Part shown: in pieces, positions 4,523 to 50,500 of the stretch | Numbering within the stretch: position 1 is the stretch's first letter | How the letters are laid out: each line of letters begins with the position of its first letter | Assembly: GCA_018402445.1 (NCBI GenBank) | Contig: JAGYIT010000017.1 | Span: 62,001 to 126,000 of the forward strand | Length of the DNA stretch: 64,000 nt | Reading direction: 5' to 3' | Source: Akkermansiaceae bacterium | GTDB taxonomy: Bacteria; Verrucomicrobiota; Verrucomicrobiia; Verrucomicrobiales; Akkermansiaceae | Notes under the pieces: model-generated | What the model saw: the letters and a program-made list of their open reading frames with translations, nothing else | What the model was told of the DNA's origin: nothing | Database searches by the model: none | Made by a program: the position numbers and the translations under genes

Positions 4523-5464
4523 ATGAAAAACAAAATGAACCGGAGGTCAGAGAATAGAAATCGGTGGGACGTGATTGGCGCTTTCGCCGCCGCGTTGGCT
4601 CTCTGCGCCTGCTCCGGCGGGGACAAACAGGAAGGCAGCGGAAAAAAACGCGTGGTGACCAGTTTCACGATCATCGCCGACATGGCGCGCGAGGTGGCGG
4701 GCGATGCGGCGGTCGTGGAATCGATCACCAAGCCCGGCGCGGAAGTCCATGGCTACGACCCGTCGCCCAAGGACATCGTGAAAGCGCAGGGGGCGGATCT
4801 CGTGCTGTGGAACGGCATGAACCTGGAGCTGTGGTTTGAGAAATTTTTCCAGAACATGAAAGACGTCCCCTCCGCCGTGCTCAGCGAAGGGATCGAGCCC
4901 ATGGGCATCACCGAAGGCCCCTACACCGGCAAGCCGAACCCGCACGCCTGGATGTCGCCCGCGAACGCCGTGATCTACGTCGAGAACATCCGCAAAGCTC
5001 TGGTGGAAATGGATCCCGCCAACGAGGCCACCTACAACACGAACGCCGCCGCCTACACCCAAAAACTCAAGGCGCTCATCGAACCGGTGCGCGAAAAGCT
5101 CGCCGTGATCCCGGAAGGCAAGCGTTGGCTCGTGACCAGTGAGGGTGCTTTCTCGTATCTCTGCGCCGACTACGGACTGAAGCAGCTTTACCTCTGGCCG
5201 ATCAACGCCGACGCGCAGGGCACGCCGCAGCAGGTCAGGAAAGTGATCGACGCCGTCCGCGAGAACGGCATGCCGGTGGTGTTTTCCGAAAGCACGGTCA
5301 GCGATAAACCGATGCGCCAGGTCGCGAAGGAAACCGGCGCGCGATACGGCGGCGTGCTTTACGTCGACTCCCTCACCGACTCCGACGGCCCGGCACCCAC
5401 TTTCCTGAAACTTCTCGAAACGAACGCCGACACCCTCGTGAAAGGATTTCTCGGAACCGAATGA
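4523..5464 (+). CDS. mntA: Metal ABC transporter substrate-binding lipoprotein (Mn/Fe type)
   Basis: Captures a transition metal ion outside the cytoplasmic membrane for the adjacent ABC importer. The ATG at 4523 is preferred because GGAG lies just upstream (4515-4518); an in-frame TTG exists at 4496. A lipoprotein signal ends at L-C-A-C (Cys30). The cluster A-I ligands fit His76 (VHGYDPSP), His141 (NPHAW), Glu256 (VFSEST) and Asp282 (YVDSL). The His-His-Glu-Asp set, and the absence of a His-rich loop, argue for Mn or Fe over Zn. The stop overlaps the next start by ATGA. Two permease genes downstream match mntABCD/sitABCD/troABCD order; the substrate itself is inferred. Confidence 0.88.
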
Positions 5465-6360
5465 GAACAGATGAGGTCAGTCTCGATGTGGAGGGCGTTA
5501 CCGTCGCCTATCCGAACGGCCACCAGGCACTCAATGACGCTAGCTTCCGCCTCGGAGCGGGGACGATCTGTGCGCTGGTGGGCGTGAACGGCAGCGGGAA
5601 ATCCACCCTTTTCAAAAGCATCATGGGCTTCGTCAACCCCACGGCCGGGCACGTCCGGATCAACGGGATGCCGGCGAAGGAATCACTCAAGAAACACCTC
5701 GTCGCCTATGTCCCGCAGTCGGAGGATGTCGATTGGCAGTTTCCCGTGAGCGTGTGGGATGTGGTGATGATGGGGCGCTACGGCGCGATGAATTTCATGC
5801 GTATCCCCCGCGCGGCGGACAAGCACTTGGTCGAGGAAAGCCTGCGGCGCGTCTCCATGTGGGAGATCCGCGACCGCCAGATCGGCGAGTTGAGCGGCGG
5901 GCAGAAGAAACGCGTGTTCCTCGCCCGCGCCCTCGCGCAGGGTGGGCGCGTGATCCTGTTGGATGAGCCATTCACCGGGGTGGATGTAAAAACGGAGGAG
6001 GCCATCATCGCGCTGTTGCACGAGATGAGGAAATCCGGCGCAATCATCTTGGTATCCACCCACAACCTAGGCAGCGTGCCGGAATTCTGCGATCAGGTCG
6101 TCCTCATCAACCGCACCGTCCTCGCCTACGGACCGACCGCCGAGGTCTTCACCGCGCAGAACCTCGCGGCGGCCTTCGGCGGCGTGTTGCGCGAATTCCA
6201 GTTCGAGAGCTCCACGATCCAGGAGCACGACGGCCGCGCCGTCACCGTGCTCAGCGACGACGAGCGACCGCTGGTCTTCGGCAAGGACGGCCACCTCGAA
6301 TACATGGATCGCGGGAAACACGAGGAGCTGCTGCGGAAACGCCGGGAAGAACATGAATGA
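5461..6360 (+). CDS. mntB: Metal ABC transporter ATP-binding protein
   Basis: ATPase that powers metal uptake. It carries Walker [10 protein letters not shown], the ABC signature LSGGQKKR, Walker B VILLDEP, and a His-switch in STHNL. The 299-residue product is longer than the usual ~240-250 because of a C-terminal extension ([19 protein letters not shown] and on) seen in some Mn/Fe family members. The start overlaps the lipoprotein gene stop (ATGA), implying translational coupling. A hairpin repeat separates it from the first permease. Confidence 0.92.
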
Positions 6361-6372
6361 TGAACAAACACC

Positions 6373-6422
6373 GTGGCTGGGACTTGCAGTCCCAGTCCGT
6401 CGTGGGGACTTGTAGTCCCCAC
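6373..6422. repeat. REP-like double hairpin, family A
   Basis: Two adjoining hairpins with triplet loops: CTGGGACT-TGC-AGTCCCAG (6377-6395) and GTGGGGACT-TGT-AGTCCCCAC (6402-6422). A near-copy occurs in frame inside mfd at 36434-36483; the first 30 bases (GTGGCTGGG to CCGTCG) are identical in both. Here it sits in the short gap between the transporter ATPase and permease genes. It has no T-run and is not a typical terminator. Confidence 0.8.
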
Positions 6423-6433
6423 TCTAACGACCG

Positions 6434-7340
6434 ATGACTGAATTCCTACAATCCCTAGCCGTCCCCTTCCAATACGACTACATGATCCGGGCAATGGGGG
6501 TCAGCGCGCTGGTCGGCGGGGTTTGCGGTTTCCTCTCCCCTTTCGTGACGCTCAAGGGTTGGTCGCTGATGGGCGACGCGCTCTCCCACGCCGTCGTGCC
6601 GGGCGTGGTGATCGCTTACATTTTCGGTTTCCCCTTCGCGCTGGGAGCCTTCATCGCTGGGCTTCTCGCGGCGGGCGCGATGGCCTTCATCCGCGCCCAG
6701 AGCCGCATCCGTGAGGACGCTACCATCGGCATCGTCTTCACCTCCTTTTTCGCGCTCGGACTCGTGCTCATCACACTGTTCCCCTCCGACGTGAATCTGA
6801 AAACGATCCTCTACGGAAACATCCTCGCCATCGCCGACAGCGACATCATCCAGGTCGTCGGGATCAGCGCGGTGGCACTACTTGTGATCGGTTTCAAATG
6901 GCGGGATCTCATGCTTTATTGCTTCGACCCGAACCAGGCGCGCTCGCTCGGGTCTGAAAGCCGGCGTCCTGCACGTCACTTTGCTCACCCTCCTCGCCGC
7001 CGTCTGCGTCGCGGCTCTTCAAGCGGTTGGAGCAATCCTCGTCCTTGCCATGCTCATCACACCCGGCGCGACCGCCTACCTCTTGACCGACCGCTTCGGG
7101 ACGATGCTGTGGCTGTCCGCAGCCCTCGGCGTGGCGACATCGCTCGCCGGAGCCTACGCCAGTTATTACATCAACGGCGCGACCGGCGGCTGCATCGTCA
7201 CCTTGCAAACCCTCGTGTTCCTTACCGCCTTCGTCTTCGAACCTAAGCGCGGAATCCTCGCCTCCCGCCGCGCGATCCGTGCGGGTGCCGATGTGCTTCG
7301 TGAAATCAATCAACCGCGAATGAACGCGAATGAACGCTGA
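6434..7340 (+). pseudogene. mntC: Metal ABC transporter permease 1, single-base frameshift
   Basis: Integral membrane permease of the ABC-3 (ZnuB/MntC) family. The N-terminal two thirds read in frame 2 (start 6434), with the diagnostic LMGDALSHAVVPGVV motif. After CFDPNQARSLG the sequence continues in frame 3 as LKAGVLHVTLLTLLAAVCVAAL and runs to the stop at 7338-7340. One surplus G in the GGG at 6950-6952 explains the shift; removing it restores a ~300-residue protein with the usual hydrophobic segments. The last residues (INQPRMNANER) come from a dispersed 'CGAATGAACG' repeat. The neighbouring permease has the same kind of defect, so sequence error is more likely than loss of the gene. Confidence 0.85.
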
Positions 7341-7416
7341 TTCAAGTAGAGTTATAAAGCCTCAGGTGTTCGTTAAAGTTCCAGGTGACGGATACGGCAG
7401 GGAGCGAAGCGCCCAC

Positions 7417-7540
7417 GGGGAGCACACGCGCCCTCGCGTGTTGTCTTTGGCGCCCTCGCCGAAGATCGGCCGTCCCAGCCATTCCACGCGGTTTCCGGCG
7501 AGGGCGCCGGAAACGACACGCGAGGGCGCGTGTGCTCCCC
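7417..7540. repeat. Long inverted repeat (44-bp arms, 36-bp spacer)
   Basis: The left arm 7417-7460 begins GGGGAGCACACGCGCC; the right arm 7497-7540 ends GGCGCGTGTGCTCCCC. The arms are complementary except at four positions, all of the C/T type that would allow G-U pairing in RNA. It fills most of the gap between the two permease genes. No transposase ORF lies inside. It looks like a MITE- or REP-class element inserted in the operon. Confidence 0.8.
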
Positions 7541-7571
7541 AAGAGAAATTTCTTTCCAGACAACGCACAGC

Positions 7572-8403
7572 ATGAACGCTTTCCTCGAACCGCTACAGCA
7601 CGCCTTCATGGTCGATGCGCTCCTCGTCGGGGCGCTGATCGGGGCGATGTGTGCGGTTCTTTCCTGTTTCCTCGTGCTGAAAGGCTGGGCGCTGATGGGC
7701 GACGCGGTTTCACACGCGGTGCTGCCAGGCATCGTCATTGCCTATATCATCGGGCATTCCGCTGGCGATCGGCGCTTTCATCGCGGGGCTGTTCTGCGCG
7801 ACCGGTGCGGGTTTCCTGAAACGCAACAGCCGCATCAAGGAAGACACCGCGATGGGGGTGGTTTTCACCGGGCTGTTCGCCTTCGGACTCGTCCTTTTCA
7901 GCCGCACGCCCTCGGACATGCACCTCGACCACATCCTCGTCGGCAACATCCTCGGCATCGGTAAGGCTCAGATGTGGCAGACGATCGGCCTCGGCGGAGT
8001 CGTGCTGCTCGTAACCTTGCTGTTGCGGAGGGATCTGCTGCTGATCTGTTTCGATCCCGGCCAGGCGCGGGTCATGGCCTTGCCGGACAAATCCCTCAAC
8101 TACCTCCTGCTCGCCCTGCTCTCACTCGCCATCGTTGTCGCGCTGCAAACGGTCGGCATCATCCTCGTCGTTGCCATGCTGGTGACGCCCGGCTGCGTCG
8201 CCCACCTGTGGACGGATCGCTTTGATAGGATGCTTGTGATTGCCGCCGTTTCCGCCGTCGTCGCGACCGTCATCGGCATCCTCGTCAGCTACCACCTCGA
8301 CGCCTCGACCGGCGGCTGCATCGTCCTCGTCCAGGCCGCGCTGTTTTTCGCATCGCTAGCCTTCGCTCCGAAATACGGGATCATCGCGCGGAAAAGAATA
8401 TGA
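7572..8403 (+). pseudogene. mntD: Metal ABC transporter permease 2, single-base frameshift
   Basis: Second ABC-3 family permease, paralogous to the preceding gene (LKGWALMGDAVSHAVLPGIV matches LKGWSLMGDALSHAVVPGVV). It starts at the ATG at 7572 (MNAFLEPLQHAF). The frame changes after IVIAYIIG: frame 3 gives way to frame 1, which reads IPLAIGAFIAGLFCATGAGF and runs to the stop at 8403. One extra G in ATCGGGCATTCCG (about 7753-7756) accounts for it; corrected, the protein is ~276 residues. A heterodimeric permease pair is typical of Mn/Fe importers. Confidence 0.85.
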
Positions 8404-31157: not shown

Positions 31158-31308
31158 AGAACCACGGATCAACGCGGATGAGCACGGATAAGATCGGGTT
31201 GCGGATCATTTTGGGAAATATCTCGCGCGATGATGTGAGCGCCCAACCTGGTTAGGATGCTCAATCCTGTTTCTTCATCCGTGTTAATCCGTGTCCATCC
31301 GTGGTTCG
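31158..31308. repeat. Dispersed 'ATCCGTG' inverted repeat
   Basis: Left part (about 31158-31190) reads GAACCACGGATCAACGCGGA and on; right part (about 31276-31308) ends TCCATCCGTGGTTCG. The arms are nearly complementary and each contains CGGAT/ATCCG steps every 8-9 bases. Repeats of this wording occur between genes in many environmental bacteria; their nature is unsettled. No gene lies in 31056-31335. Confidence 0.65.
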
Positions 31309-38600: not shown

Positions 38601-38957
38601 GCCCCCCTCCCCGCCTTCATCCCCACCTCCTACCTCTCAGACGCCAAGCTCCGCATCCACGCCTACCGCGAACTCGCCGAAGCCAACACCCCCAAATCCA
38701 TCACCGCCCTCGAGAAAAACTGGATCGACCGCCACGGCCGCCTCCCCGAACCCGTTAAAAGCCTCCTCACCATCGCAAGAATCAAAGCCGAAGCAGCATC
38801 GAACAAAATCTCATCGGTGGAGATTTCAGGACAGAGGCTGATGCTGCAAAGAAACGGCAGCCCGATTCTCATGGATGGTTCCAGGTATCCGAGACTGATG
38901 AAATCGAAGCCCGAGGAGAAACTAAGCGAGGCGCTGGATCTGCTGAGGAATTTCTAA

Positions 38958-39145
38958 GGAGCAGGCGCGTCACCGCGTGGAGTAGGCGCGTCTCCGCGCC
39001 TTGAGTTCTAACCGGCGTCTCCGCCGGTCTCTCAAGAATATTCCTCACTGCGGGTGGAGACACCCGCAAGAACCCAAGGGGCGGTGACGCCCCTACTCCG
39101 GGCGGTGACGCCCCTGCTCCGCGCGCTTACGCCCCTGCTCCTTTA
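38958..39145. repeat. REP-like hairpin array, left of RAYT
   Basis: A series of hairpins between mfd and the RAYT gene: GGCGCG-TCTC-CGCGCC (38983-39000), ACCGGCG-TCTC-CGCCGGT (39011-39028), GCGGGTG-GAGA-CACCCGC (39050-39067), GGGGCG-GTGA-CGCCCC (39078-39093) and further CGCCCCT(A/G)CTCC units. GGAG(T/C)AGG on the left is the inverse of CC(T/C)(A/G)CTCC on the right, so the whole array is an imperfect palindrome. The mfd stop TAA abuts it. Confidence 0.85.
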
Positions 39146-39183
39146 CACTTGTCGCATCTGCACCTGACATTATTTTCAAACCC

Positions 39184-39798
39184 ATGTCCGATTTCCTCGA
39201 TCCCTCCGAAGAAATCAAGAAACACGGCTCCAAACTTCCTCATTGGCAGCAGGACGGCGTGATGCAGTTCGTCACCTTCCGCCTCGGTGATTCCCTCCCC
39301 CAAACCAAACTCACGGAGTGGATGGAAAGTCGCAAAACTTTTCTGGAACAGAACCCAAAGCCATGGACGGAGAAAACGGAATTCGAGTTCCACCGCCGCT
39401 TCACCCAGCGGTTCGAAGAATGGCTCGATGAAGGCGCGGGTTCCTGCCTCTTCCGCCAACCCGAAGCCCGCAAACTGATGGAGAGCATCCTCATGAAATT
39501 CCAAGGCGAGCGCTACATCCACGAGTCATGGGTCATCATGCCAAACCACCTCCATCTCCTTTTCAAACCGCTGGTGCCCATGGAAAAGCTCATTCAGGCA
39601 TGGAAAAGCACATTTTCCCATCGTTTCGGCCAAGGCTCCGTCTGGCAGGAAAGATACCGCGACACCCTCATCCGCGATCCGAAACACTTCGCCAACTGCG
39701 TCCGCTACATCCGCCGCAATCCGCGCCAACTTCCAAAGGAAACTTTCACCCTCTGGGAAAGTGACCGAGCAAAAAAGATCAGCGCATACAAGGAGTAG
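39184..39798 (+). CDS. REP-associated tyrosine transposase (RAYT)
   Basis: Single-strand DNA transposase of the IS200/IS605 Y1-like group that mobilises or maintains REP palindromes. 204 residues from the ATG at 39184. The HUH motif is seen in MPNHLHLLFK (about residues 119-128), and the catalytic Tyr is probably that in CVRYIRRNP (about residue 179). Upstream WQQDGVMQFVTFRLGDSLP is the typical N-terminal strand. It is flanked by two near-identical hairpin arrays in direct orientation. Its stop codon TAG is part of the first GGAGTAGG unit of the right array. Confidence 0.92.
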   Translation: MSDFLDPSEEIKKHGSKLPHWQQDGVMQFVTFRLGDSLPQTKLTEWMESRKTFLEQNPKPWTEKTEFEFHRRFTQRFEEWLDEGAGSCLFRQPEARKLMESILMKFQGERYIHESWVIMPNHLHLLFKPLVPMEKLIQAWKSTFSHRFGQGSVWQERYRDTLIRDPKHFANCVRYIRRNPRQLPKETFTLWESDRAKKISAYKE

Positions 39799-39980
39799 GC
39801 GCGTCTCCGCACGGAGTAGGCGCGTCTCCGCGCCTTGAGTTTCAGGGTGGCGTCTCCGCCACACTGAAAATATCTTCCTGACTACGGGTGGAGACACCCG
39901 TATGAACCCAAGGGGCGGTGACGCCCCTACTCCGGGCGGTGACGCCCCTACTCCGGGCGGCGACGCCCCTACTCCAGCGG
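39792..39980. repeat. REP-like hairpin array, right of RAYT
   Basis: Same order of units as the left array: GGAGTAGGCGCGTCTCCGC twice, GGGTGGCGTCTCCGCCAC, ACGGGTG-GAGA-CACCCGT, GGGGCG-GTGA-CGCCCC, and GGGCGGTGACGCCCCTACTC repeats. Stem bases differ between arrays in compensating pairs (for example GCGGGTG/CACCCGC versus ACGGGTG/CACCCGT), which indicates that the hairpin, not the sequence, is conserved. Confidence 0.85.
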
Positions 39981-49769: not shown

Positions 49770-50354
49770 ATGAAACTTCACACCAACCTTATACTCGCCT
49801 TGCTAGCGTCGGGGGGCACACAGTTTATCCTCGCGCTACCGGCTCATTCCGCCGTGATCGCCAACTGGAAAATGCTGAGTGGAACCGCCACGAATTCGGG
49901 GATGGACACCAACAGCCCGACCATCGGCAACGGCACGACGAATAATGCCGACAACGTCTGGCTGGCGGCGCGCCTTGGAACCGTCGCCACTCCCGCGTCC
50001 GTCACCCTCGCGGTCGGAGAAACATTGACCGTGTCCGGCACCGTCGTGTTGACCGGTGGTGATGATCTTCGGCGGGAAGGCTTCCGCATCGGCGTGTTCG
50101 ATGCCGTCACCGAATTCGAAAACGGGACAACCACCTTCGCGAATGGCGGCTGGTTAATGGTACCGTCAAGCAATGGGATCTTCAAAGCCAGAATTCCTTT
50201 CGTATTCGCCGGCATCGGGGTTCCACGTGGTGACGAGACCGTCTGTTTCGAGACATTCCGCTTTCAACCTAAATACCGCAGTTGGGTATCAATTTTTCAC
50301 CGCAGAGTCGCAGAGGTCGCAAAGGAACGCAGAGCCTTGCATGTGGGAAGATAG
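49770..50354 (+). pseudogene. Truncated secreted (PEP-CTERM-type) protein
   Basis: A signal peptide (MKLHTNLILALLASGGTQF) is followed by VIANWKMLSGTATNSGMDTN and NADNVWLAARLGTVATPASV, the usual N-terminus of Verrucomicrobiota PEP-CTERM proteins that open a jelly-roll domain. After about 150 residues the sequence becomes unlike the family, and the last ~40 codons run through a 'CGCAGAG' dispersed repeat (HRRVAEVAKERRALHVGR). There is no PEP-CTERM signal. It is most likely a broken gene, truncated near 50,200. Confidence 0.65.
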
Positions 50355-50500
50355 AAAATTTGGAAAAACGATGGAACTGCATGGTTCACCCAATGGGTGA
50401 AATGGAATTGCCGTGAAAAATGCCCTGCACTATCCCGAAACACAAACTCTTCTCAGCGTTCCCTCTGCGACCTCTGCGCCTTTGCGGTGAAAATCTTCGT
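50284..50500. repeat. Dispersed 'CGCAGAGG' inverted repeat
   Basis: Left arm near 50298-50338 (CACCGCAGAGTCGCAGAGGT CGCAAAGG), right arm near 50455-50493 (CCTCTGCGACCTCTGCGCCT TTGCGGTGA). The arms are mostly complementary, 115 bases apart. This wording recurs in intergenic DNA of many environmental bacteria. 50355-50673 contains no supported gene. Confidence 0.65.

Follow-up and report, generated by a model that had tools for sequence, protein, structure and literature searches.

A REPIN-type palindrome in a metal transporter operon of an Akkermansiaceae bacterium and its candidate RAYT, carried in frame within alaS

A palindrome between two permease genes

The stretch of DNA analysed here (64,000 nucleotides, hereafter the window) contains an operon of the manganese/iron ABC transporter type, whose ATPase scores 380.5 bits, below the cut-off of 393 of the nearest named family. 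A palindrome lies between the two permease coding regions, and the features of the locus are as follows.

5461-6360, plus strand: manganese/iron ABC transporter ATPase of the element-bearing operon (NCBIfam NF011630)
6434-7340, plus strand: first permease, its frame split by a frameshift near 6952; stop 76 bp upstream of the element
7417-7540, no strand: REPIN-like element of 124 bp, two inverted two-hairpin arms plus a 24-bp spacer, from repeat search, fold and genome copies
7417-7466, plus strand: left arm, with head GGGGAGC, outer hairpin 7424-7441 (ACACGCG/CCCT/CGCGTGT) and inner hairpin 7443-7466; from arm alignment and pair counts, 76.3 bits with the covariance model described below
7467-7490, no strand: spacer separating the arms, from the arm limits
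7491-7540, minus strand: right arm, inverted, with outer hairpin 7516-7533 and inner hairpin 7491-7514; from pair counts, and at 80.2 bits the top-scoring covariance-model match of the whole genome
7572-8403, plus strand: second permease, with a frameshift near 7754; ATG 31 bp downstream of the element

The original prediction of a near-perfect 124-bp palindrome at 7417-7540 was exact in its coordinates when checked by repeat search, and its placement between two permease coding regions is borne out by the upstream stop at 7340 and the downstream ATG at 7572. The search delimits arms of 52 nt each (7417-7468 and 7489-7540) that are 87% complementary around a 20-nt loop, and exactly four differences were found across the first 44 nt of the arms, as had been claimed. 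All four were said to preserve G-U pairing. This holds for three (7442T/7515G, 7447T/7510G and 7448T/7509G), whereas 7445C stands opposite 7512A as a C-A mismatch, so that 43 pairs and a single mismatch make up the RNA helix in place of the 44 pairs claimed. The minimum free energy of 7400-7560 is -115.7 kcal/mol as compared with -64.9 ± 4.1 for shuffled sequences (z = -12.3; 0 of 200 shuffles as low). With DNA parameters, the 124-nt strand can fold either into a four-hairpin 'clover' (-37.8 kcal/mol) or into the long hairpin (-61.1 kcal/mol), both of which are discussed for REPINs in the sections of PMC3116915 used here. With up to three mismatches allowed, the window has two occurrences of the 24-nt arm end, as compared with none in 100 shuffles. 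Comparison of the palindrome with Rfam returned nothing above threshold, the matches being of the chance kind (MIR918 at 57 bits, where the gathering score is 268).

The frameshifts in both permeases are missing from the relative G005. Together with the apparent loss of frame near the 3' end of this genome's alaS, seen when translations were inspected by eye, they are probably assembly indels. Other repeats are present in the window. A second, unrelated palindromic repeat lies in the same operon at 6377-6422 (CTGGGACTTGCAGTCCCAG and GTGGGGACTTGTAGTCCCCAC), half of another repeat (CCGCGAATGAACGCGAATG) lies at 7312-7345, with an inverted pair of such repeats at the same intergenic spot in G005, and two other places, 31159-31307 and 50294-50493, hold inverted repeats of the CCACGGATCAACG and CACCGCAGAGTCGCAGAGG types.

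A dispersed family of two-hairpin arms

The original prediction offered two roles for the palindrome, a MITE-like element or an operon hairpin, and held that unique arms, together with uniform transcript coverage, would count against both. When searched against the genome (3.53 Mb in 17 contigs, Verrucomicrobiota), the arms were not unique: 82 local matches were found, including four further near-complete copies of 91-94% identity. The pattern GGAGCACACGCGNNNTCGCGTGT, describing the GGAG-hairpin, occurs with up to three mismatches at 35 places as compared with 0 for a reversed control. A covariance model of the arm recovered 40 arm-sized units at E ≤ 0.1 (39 for this genome, G000, under the stricter Infernal filters of the genus comparison). 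The model was built from 35 of the 40 collected arms; five in which the inner hairpin is lost or rearranged were omitted from the alignment (A1).

Each arm consists of the head GGGGAGC, an outer hairpin of 7 pairs with loop CCCT, and an inner hairpin of 10 pairs. Among 31 distinct arms, 96% of the stem cells are paired, and this falls to 31-56% when partners are slid by 1-3 columns. Two-sided changes occur at 8 of the 10 pairs of the inner stem; 73 such changes were counted as compared with 17.5 in shuffles, and the covariation score was reached by 0 of 500 shuffles. Fourteen copies in the genome have two arms, one of them being the transposase unit described below. Pairing of the inner parts between arms reaches 18-22 of 24 only in the 123-124-nt class and in that unit, as compared with 9-14 of 24 in copies of 137-167 nt. 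Within arms, 9-10 of the 10 inner pairs form wherever the hairpin is intact and in register (in the left arm of C12:71986 only 4 of 10 are counted, since a loop shorter by one base puts it out of step with the fixed columns). Since pairing within arms is kept across classes and pairing between them is not, it is the pair of hairpins in each arm that is conserved, and the long helix is a by-product of the symmetry. A conserved 44-bp helix was thus ruled out.

Two inverted, hairpin-capable REP-like units around a short spacer, a dispersed family of 40 arm matches and 14 two-arm copies, and a RAYT flanked by the same REP (C17:18764-19398, below) are hallmarks of REPINs, and all of them are found here. 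The arms lack the 5' GT[AG]G at the hairpin foot that marks the GTAG superfamily, their head being GGAG plus C, and they lack the TIRYT terminal repeat GGGGWSAS, reading GGGGAGCA. The palindrome can be placed in a non-GTAG class of REPIN-type elements. The description 'MITE-like' was right in kind, given about 40 occurrences of the arms and several relatives whose corresponding operon lacks the element; a more precise term is REPIN-like, there being a cognate RAYT.

The transporter site was compared among related genomes. G008, the closest relative by AlaS, has the element after the first permease, where its contig breaks. In G009, G004 and G018 the permeases are separated by a short spacer that lacks it, and G005 carries another palindromic repeat at the same spot and no REPIN. 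The observation that bears on REPIN movement is this presence or absence of the element between species. Because the element is missing there in several relatives, it is young at this position and not needed for the operon.

These observations bear on the second of the two proposed roles, in which the transcript between the permease genes would form a long helix that is maintained because it attenuates or protects the mRNA. The very stable fold 31 bp upstream of the second permease start fits such a role, and REPs have generally been proposed to act in mRNA stability (PMC3733652, in the portion consulted). However, the element is absent at this place from G009, G004, G018 and G005, its family occupies many unrelated places, and the paired inner stems that are preserved lie within arms and not between them. 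A regulatory role conserved with the operon is ruled out by the relatives that lack the element, and we consider a functional operon hairpin improbable as an explanation of the palindrome, although the element may locally influence the mntD mRNA of this strain. We propose instead that a mobile REPIN-type element landed in the transporter operon at a site where its presence is neutral or tolerated.

A RAYT in frame within alaS

The genome contains 32 Y1_Tnp matches, only one of which is enclosed by these arms. The unit is composed as follows.

C17:18764-19398: whole arm-RAYT-arm unit, 635 bp
C17:18764, plus strand: first arm
C17:18955-19254: Y1_Tnp
C17:19374, minus strand: second arm

The enclosed protein is identified as a RAYT by NCBIfam NF047646 (REP_Tyr_transpos), which scores 93.3 bits for the core and 87.1 for the fusion at a cut-off of 80. 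It has the HUH/tyrosine motifs: HxH (H58, H60) is invariant in alignment A2 and Y134 is present in 14 of 15 rows, with serine replacing the tyrosine of the Y-I-x-x-N-P motif in G026. In a sequence comparison the RAYT family profile matches 4er8 (E 1.8e-7), and this RAYT bound to a REP hairpin is also the top PDB fold match of a model (pLDDT 87.8) of the RAYT domain of the close relative L178 (E 2.4e-8, TM 0.66, 20% identity), giving it the TnpAREP fold. According to the excerpted parts of PMC8266576, RAYT-type enzymes cut single-stranded REP hairpins at CT and a 5' tetranucleotide is the proposed guide; the tetranucleotide of the arms here is GGAG. The RAYT core is under purifying selection, with dN/dS of 0.06-0.13 in eight pairs as compared with 0.04-0.20 and 0.14-0.28 for the flanking alaS parts.

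A MITE whose terminal inverted repeats are used by a DDE transposase would likewise be short, palindromic, dispersed and noncoding. The same arms, however, flank a Y1/HUH RAYT, no DDE gene was noticed beside them, and covariation is confined within each arm, as for recognition of hairpins in single-stranded DNA, which makes movement by a DDE enzyme very unlikely. Mobility of the REPIN kind, served by the arm-flanked RAYT, is the reading that we retain.

Other Y1 proteins were noted in the course of the search. Many near-identical proteins of about 377 codons, not flanked by these arms, are present on C16, C10 and C5 (L039-L048), and the window holds a free-standing RAYT-like frame of 229 codons (39109-39795) between inverted-repeat clusters of yet another family at 38956-39143 and 39792-39975.

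The arm-RAYT-arm unit lies in frame within alaS, following ...LKRFEEAV and preceding FSGENAFELYDTFGFP, and the frame runs for 1150 codons free of stops. A fused AlaS query matches the genome once, so no second alaS is seen. Seven other genomes, first found through their arms alone, carry the same unit at the same place in alaS (635 bp, 662 in one). Of the 92 genomes that gave a match, 50, mostly those first listed, had the site inspected; 3 of 49 rows have no readable insert (G009, G016 and G058), and no site was found in G025. Of the 46 sites read, 15 contain a RAYT, 11 with these arms and four with a related RAYT and other arms. The remaining 31 do not, with in-frame REP-like remnants kept in G019, G077 and G023 among them. 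In G023 (L152), a 31-bp palindrome, GGGGACGACACGCGGGACGCGTGTGGTCCCC, apparently represents outer hairpins fused after loss of everything between the arms. The sister pair G031 (occupied) and G007 (empty) have alaS genes that are mostly 90-98% identical on both sides, with 81-88% in one stretch of the 3' half. The two agree as far as GAAGAAGCGATGGG and once more from CTCTCCGGAGAC onwards, and G007 has a linker of 19 nt where G031 has the element.

A single origin of the alaS insertion is unsupported. An N-domain tree, made by a quick method and with many open forks, needs six changes for the main RAYT type, of which the starred branches force at least two, and thus points to recurrent gain and loss or to recombination of alleles. 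An AlphaFold model of the whole AlaS-RAYT fusion was weak (pLDDT 69.1, pTM 0.37, 18 sequences); in it, the RAYT part (about 452-598) mostly reaches pLDDT 70-91 and the linkers on either side (418-451 and 602-624) are of low confidence, and the model was not used as proof.

The presence of the alaS RAYT tracks REP copy number in the genus. The nine carriers among 37 genomes have 5-39 arms, whereas 24 of the 28 non-carriers have 0-4, the exceptions having 5, 6, 15 and 44 (Mann-Whitney p 1.6e-5, a statistic that ignores relatedness). Two of these exceptions, G035 (44 arms) and G018 (15 arms), have numerous arms and no RAYT match at E ≤ 1e-12; the alaS of G035 was recovered only in part.

RAYTs in other essential genes

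When named genome contigs were scanned with the RAYT profile, 79 loci were returned in Verrucomicrobiota-type bacteria by title, one entry being titled just 'bacterium'. Host genes were assigned by flank clustering and by NCBIfam on eight representatives as alaS (41), recG (22), metH (9), thrS (4), carB (1) and priA (1, N side only), with one standalone locus. Both host sides are in frame at 69 of the 79 (alaS, recG, metH, thrS or carB), seven have one side in frame and a contig end on the other, L228 and L236 are one-sided, and L238 is the standalone locus. Among loci L178-L256, alaS and metH each contain at least two different RAYT sites. In a sample of 387 genomes drawn evenly across the phylum, eight hold this RAYT clade, all eight in open frames of 730-1316 codons. 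Of a further 82 weaker RAYT matches, 54 are in frames of at least 400 codons and the other 28 in shorter frames, which shows that outside this clade RAYTs often stand free as well.

The genome under study itself contains two more RAYT fusions with other arms, in metH (C5:808.8 kb) and ispG (C4:289.6 kb). The one in metH (L032, C5:807302-810526), the third in-frame RAYT, has its own inverted repeat on its flanks. The peptides flanking the one in ispG (L037) are coded by sequence of the type found at 6377-6422 in the window, and RAYTs of the ispG type also lie in long open frames in G008, G076, G081, G005, G031 and others.

The genomes compared are mostly metagenome assemblies, and palindromes break assemblies, yet a RAYT placed in alaS by assembly or annotation error is hardly credible given the same site and frame in 15 of 46 alaS sites from independently deposited records, stop-free arms and purifying selection, the clean G031/G007 pair, and the 69 loci in frame on both sides.

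Taken together, a repeat family, covarying arm hairpins, arms around exactly one RAYT, conserved in-frame nesting, purifying selection, and presence or absence at the transporter site lead us to consider it highly probable that the palindrome is a REPIN-type mobile element that is non-autonomous and is acted on in trans by the one arm-flanked RAYT that lies in frame in the single alaS. The element would consist of two inverted REP-like units, each a GGGGAGC head followed by two short hairpins, around a spacer; the Y1/HUH enzyme would recognise it in trans as single-stranded DNA and, by analogy with characterised RAYTs and IS200/IS605, would cut, strand-transfer and copy it. The alaS-borne RAYT is most likely the enzyme that copies the palindrome. 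Against this reading stand the head GGAG in place of the canonical GT[AG]G, two hairpins per arm instead of one, and evidence that is wholly comparative.

The REPIN-type palindrome itself belongs to a known kind; the in-frame nesting of its RAYT in essential genes across the phylum appears to be new. A search of the PubMed Central literature on RAYTs, in-frame transposases and alaS, with subscription journals outside its range, found no report of RAYTs inside housekeeping genes. In a published model, REPIN insertion into a gene destroys it (PMC8049555, in the portion consulted); here, in contrast, a whole transposase unit lies in frame in essential genes, open and under purifying selection, and its loss and decay are therefore tied to those of the host gene. 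We suggest, with opinion evenly balanced for and against, that RAYTs of this Verrucomicrobiota clade are in-frame passenger domains of essential genes (alaS, recG, metH, thrS, carB and probably priA), in which REP arms would encode flexible linkers, the host gene would give expression and protection from loss, the tethered transposase would still copy REPINs in trans, and occupied and empty alleles would be exchanged at the same linker site in the manner of inteins without splicing. A passenger-domain life, if true, would account for the puzzling persistence of RAYTs as single-copy transposases that are passed on vertically.

Inteins are selfish coding elements kept in frame inside essential genes, and in this the RAYT fusions resemble them. 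Among the families called on this genome's three fused proteins there was no splicing domain, only host-type and Y1/IS200/RAYT families. The REPINs of Pseudomonas fluorescens SBW25, as presented in the excerpts of PMC3116915, are alike in having two inverted REP units around a spacer, a predicted hairpin, dispersal, and a tie to one RAYT; the elements here differ in the GGAG head, two hairpins per arm, about 40 arm units, and a RAYT inside a housekeeping gene. TIRtrons, or TIRYTs, likewise have a RAYT between long inverted repeats starting GGGG, and repeat families derived from them, the motif GGGGWSAS being two letters off GGGGAGCA (PMC3733652, excerpts). E. coli TnpAREP (4ER8) shares the fold, the HUH/Tyr motifs and cognate hairpin arms, but is only 20% identical in the fold match, requires GTAG (PMC8266576, excerpts) and is not known from within another gene. 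Long fused proteins were discarded in a study that found REPs inside tnpA genes (PMC6006769, in part). REPs, and not RAYTs, are described inside ORFs, many of them in Opitutus terrae (Verrucomicrobia), in the excerpts of PMC3733652. These intragenic REPs and the Rickettsia palindromic elements are also palindromic repeats in frame in conserved genes, to which they add peptides; there the repeat alone is reported inside ORFs, whereas here a whole transposase unit lies in frame.
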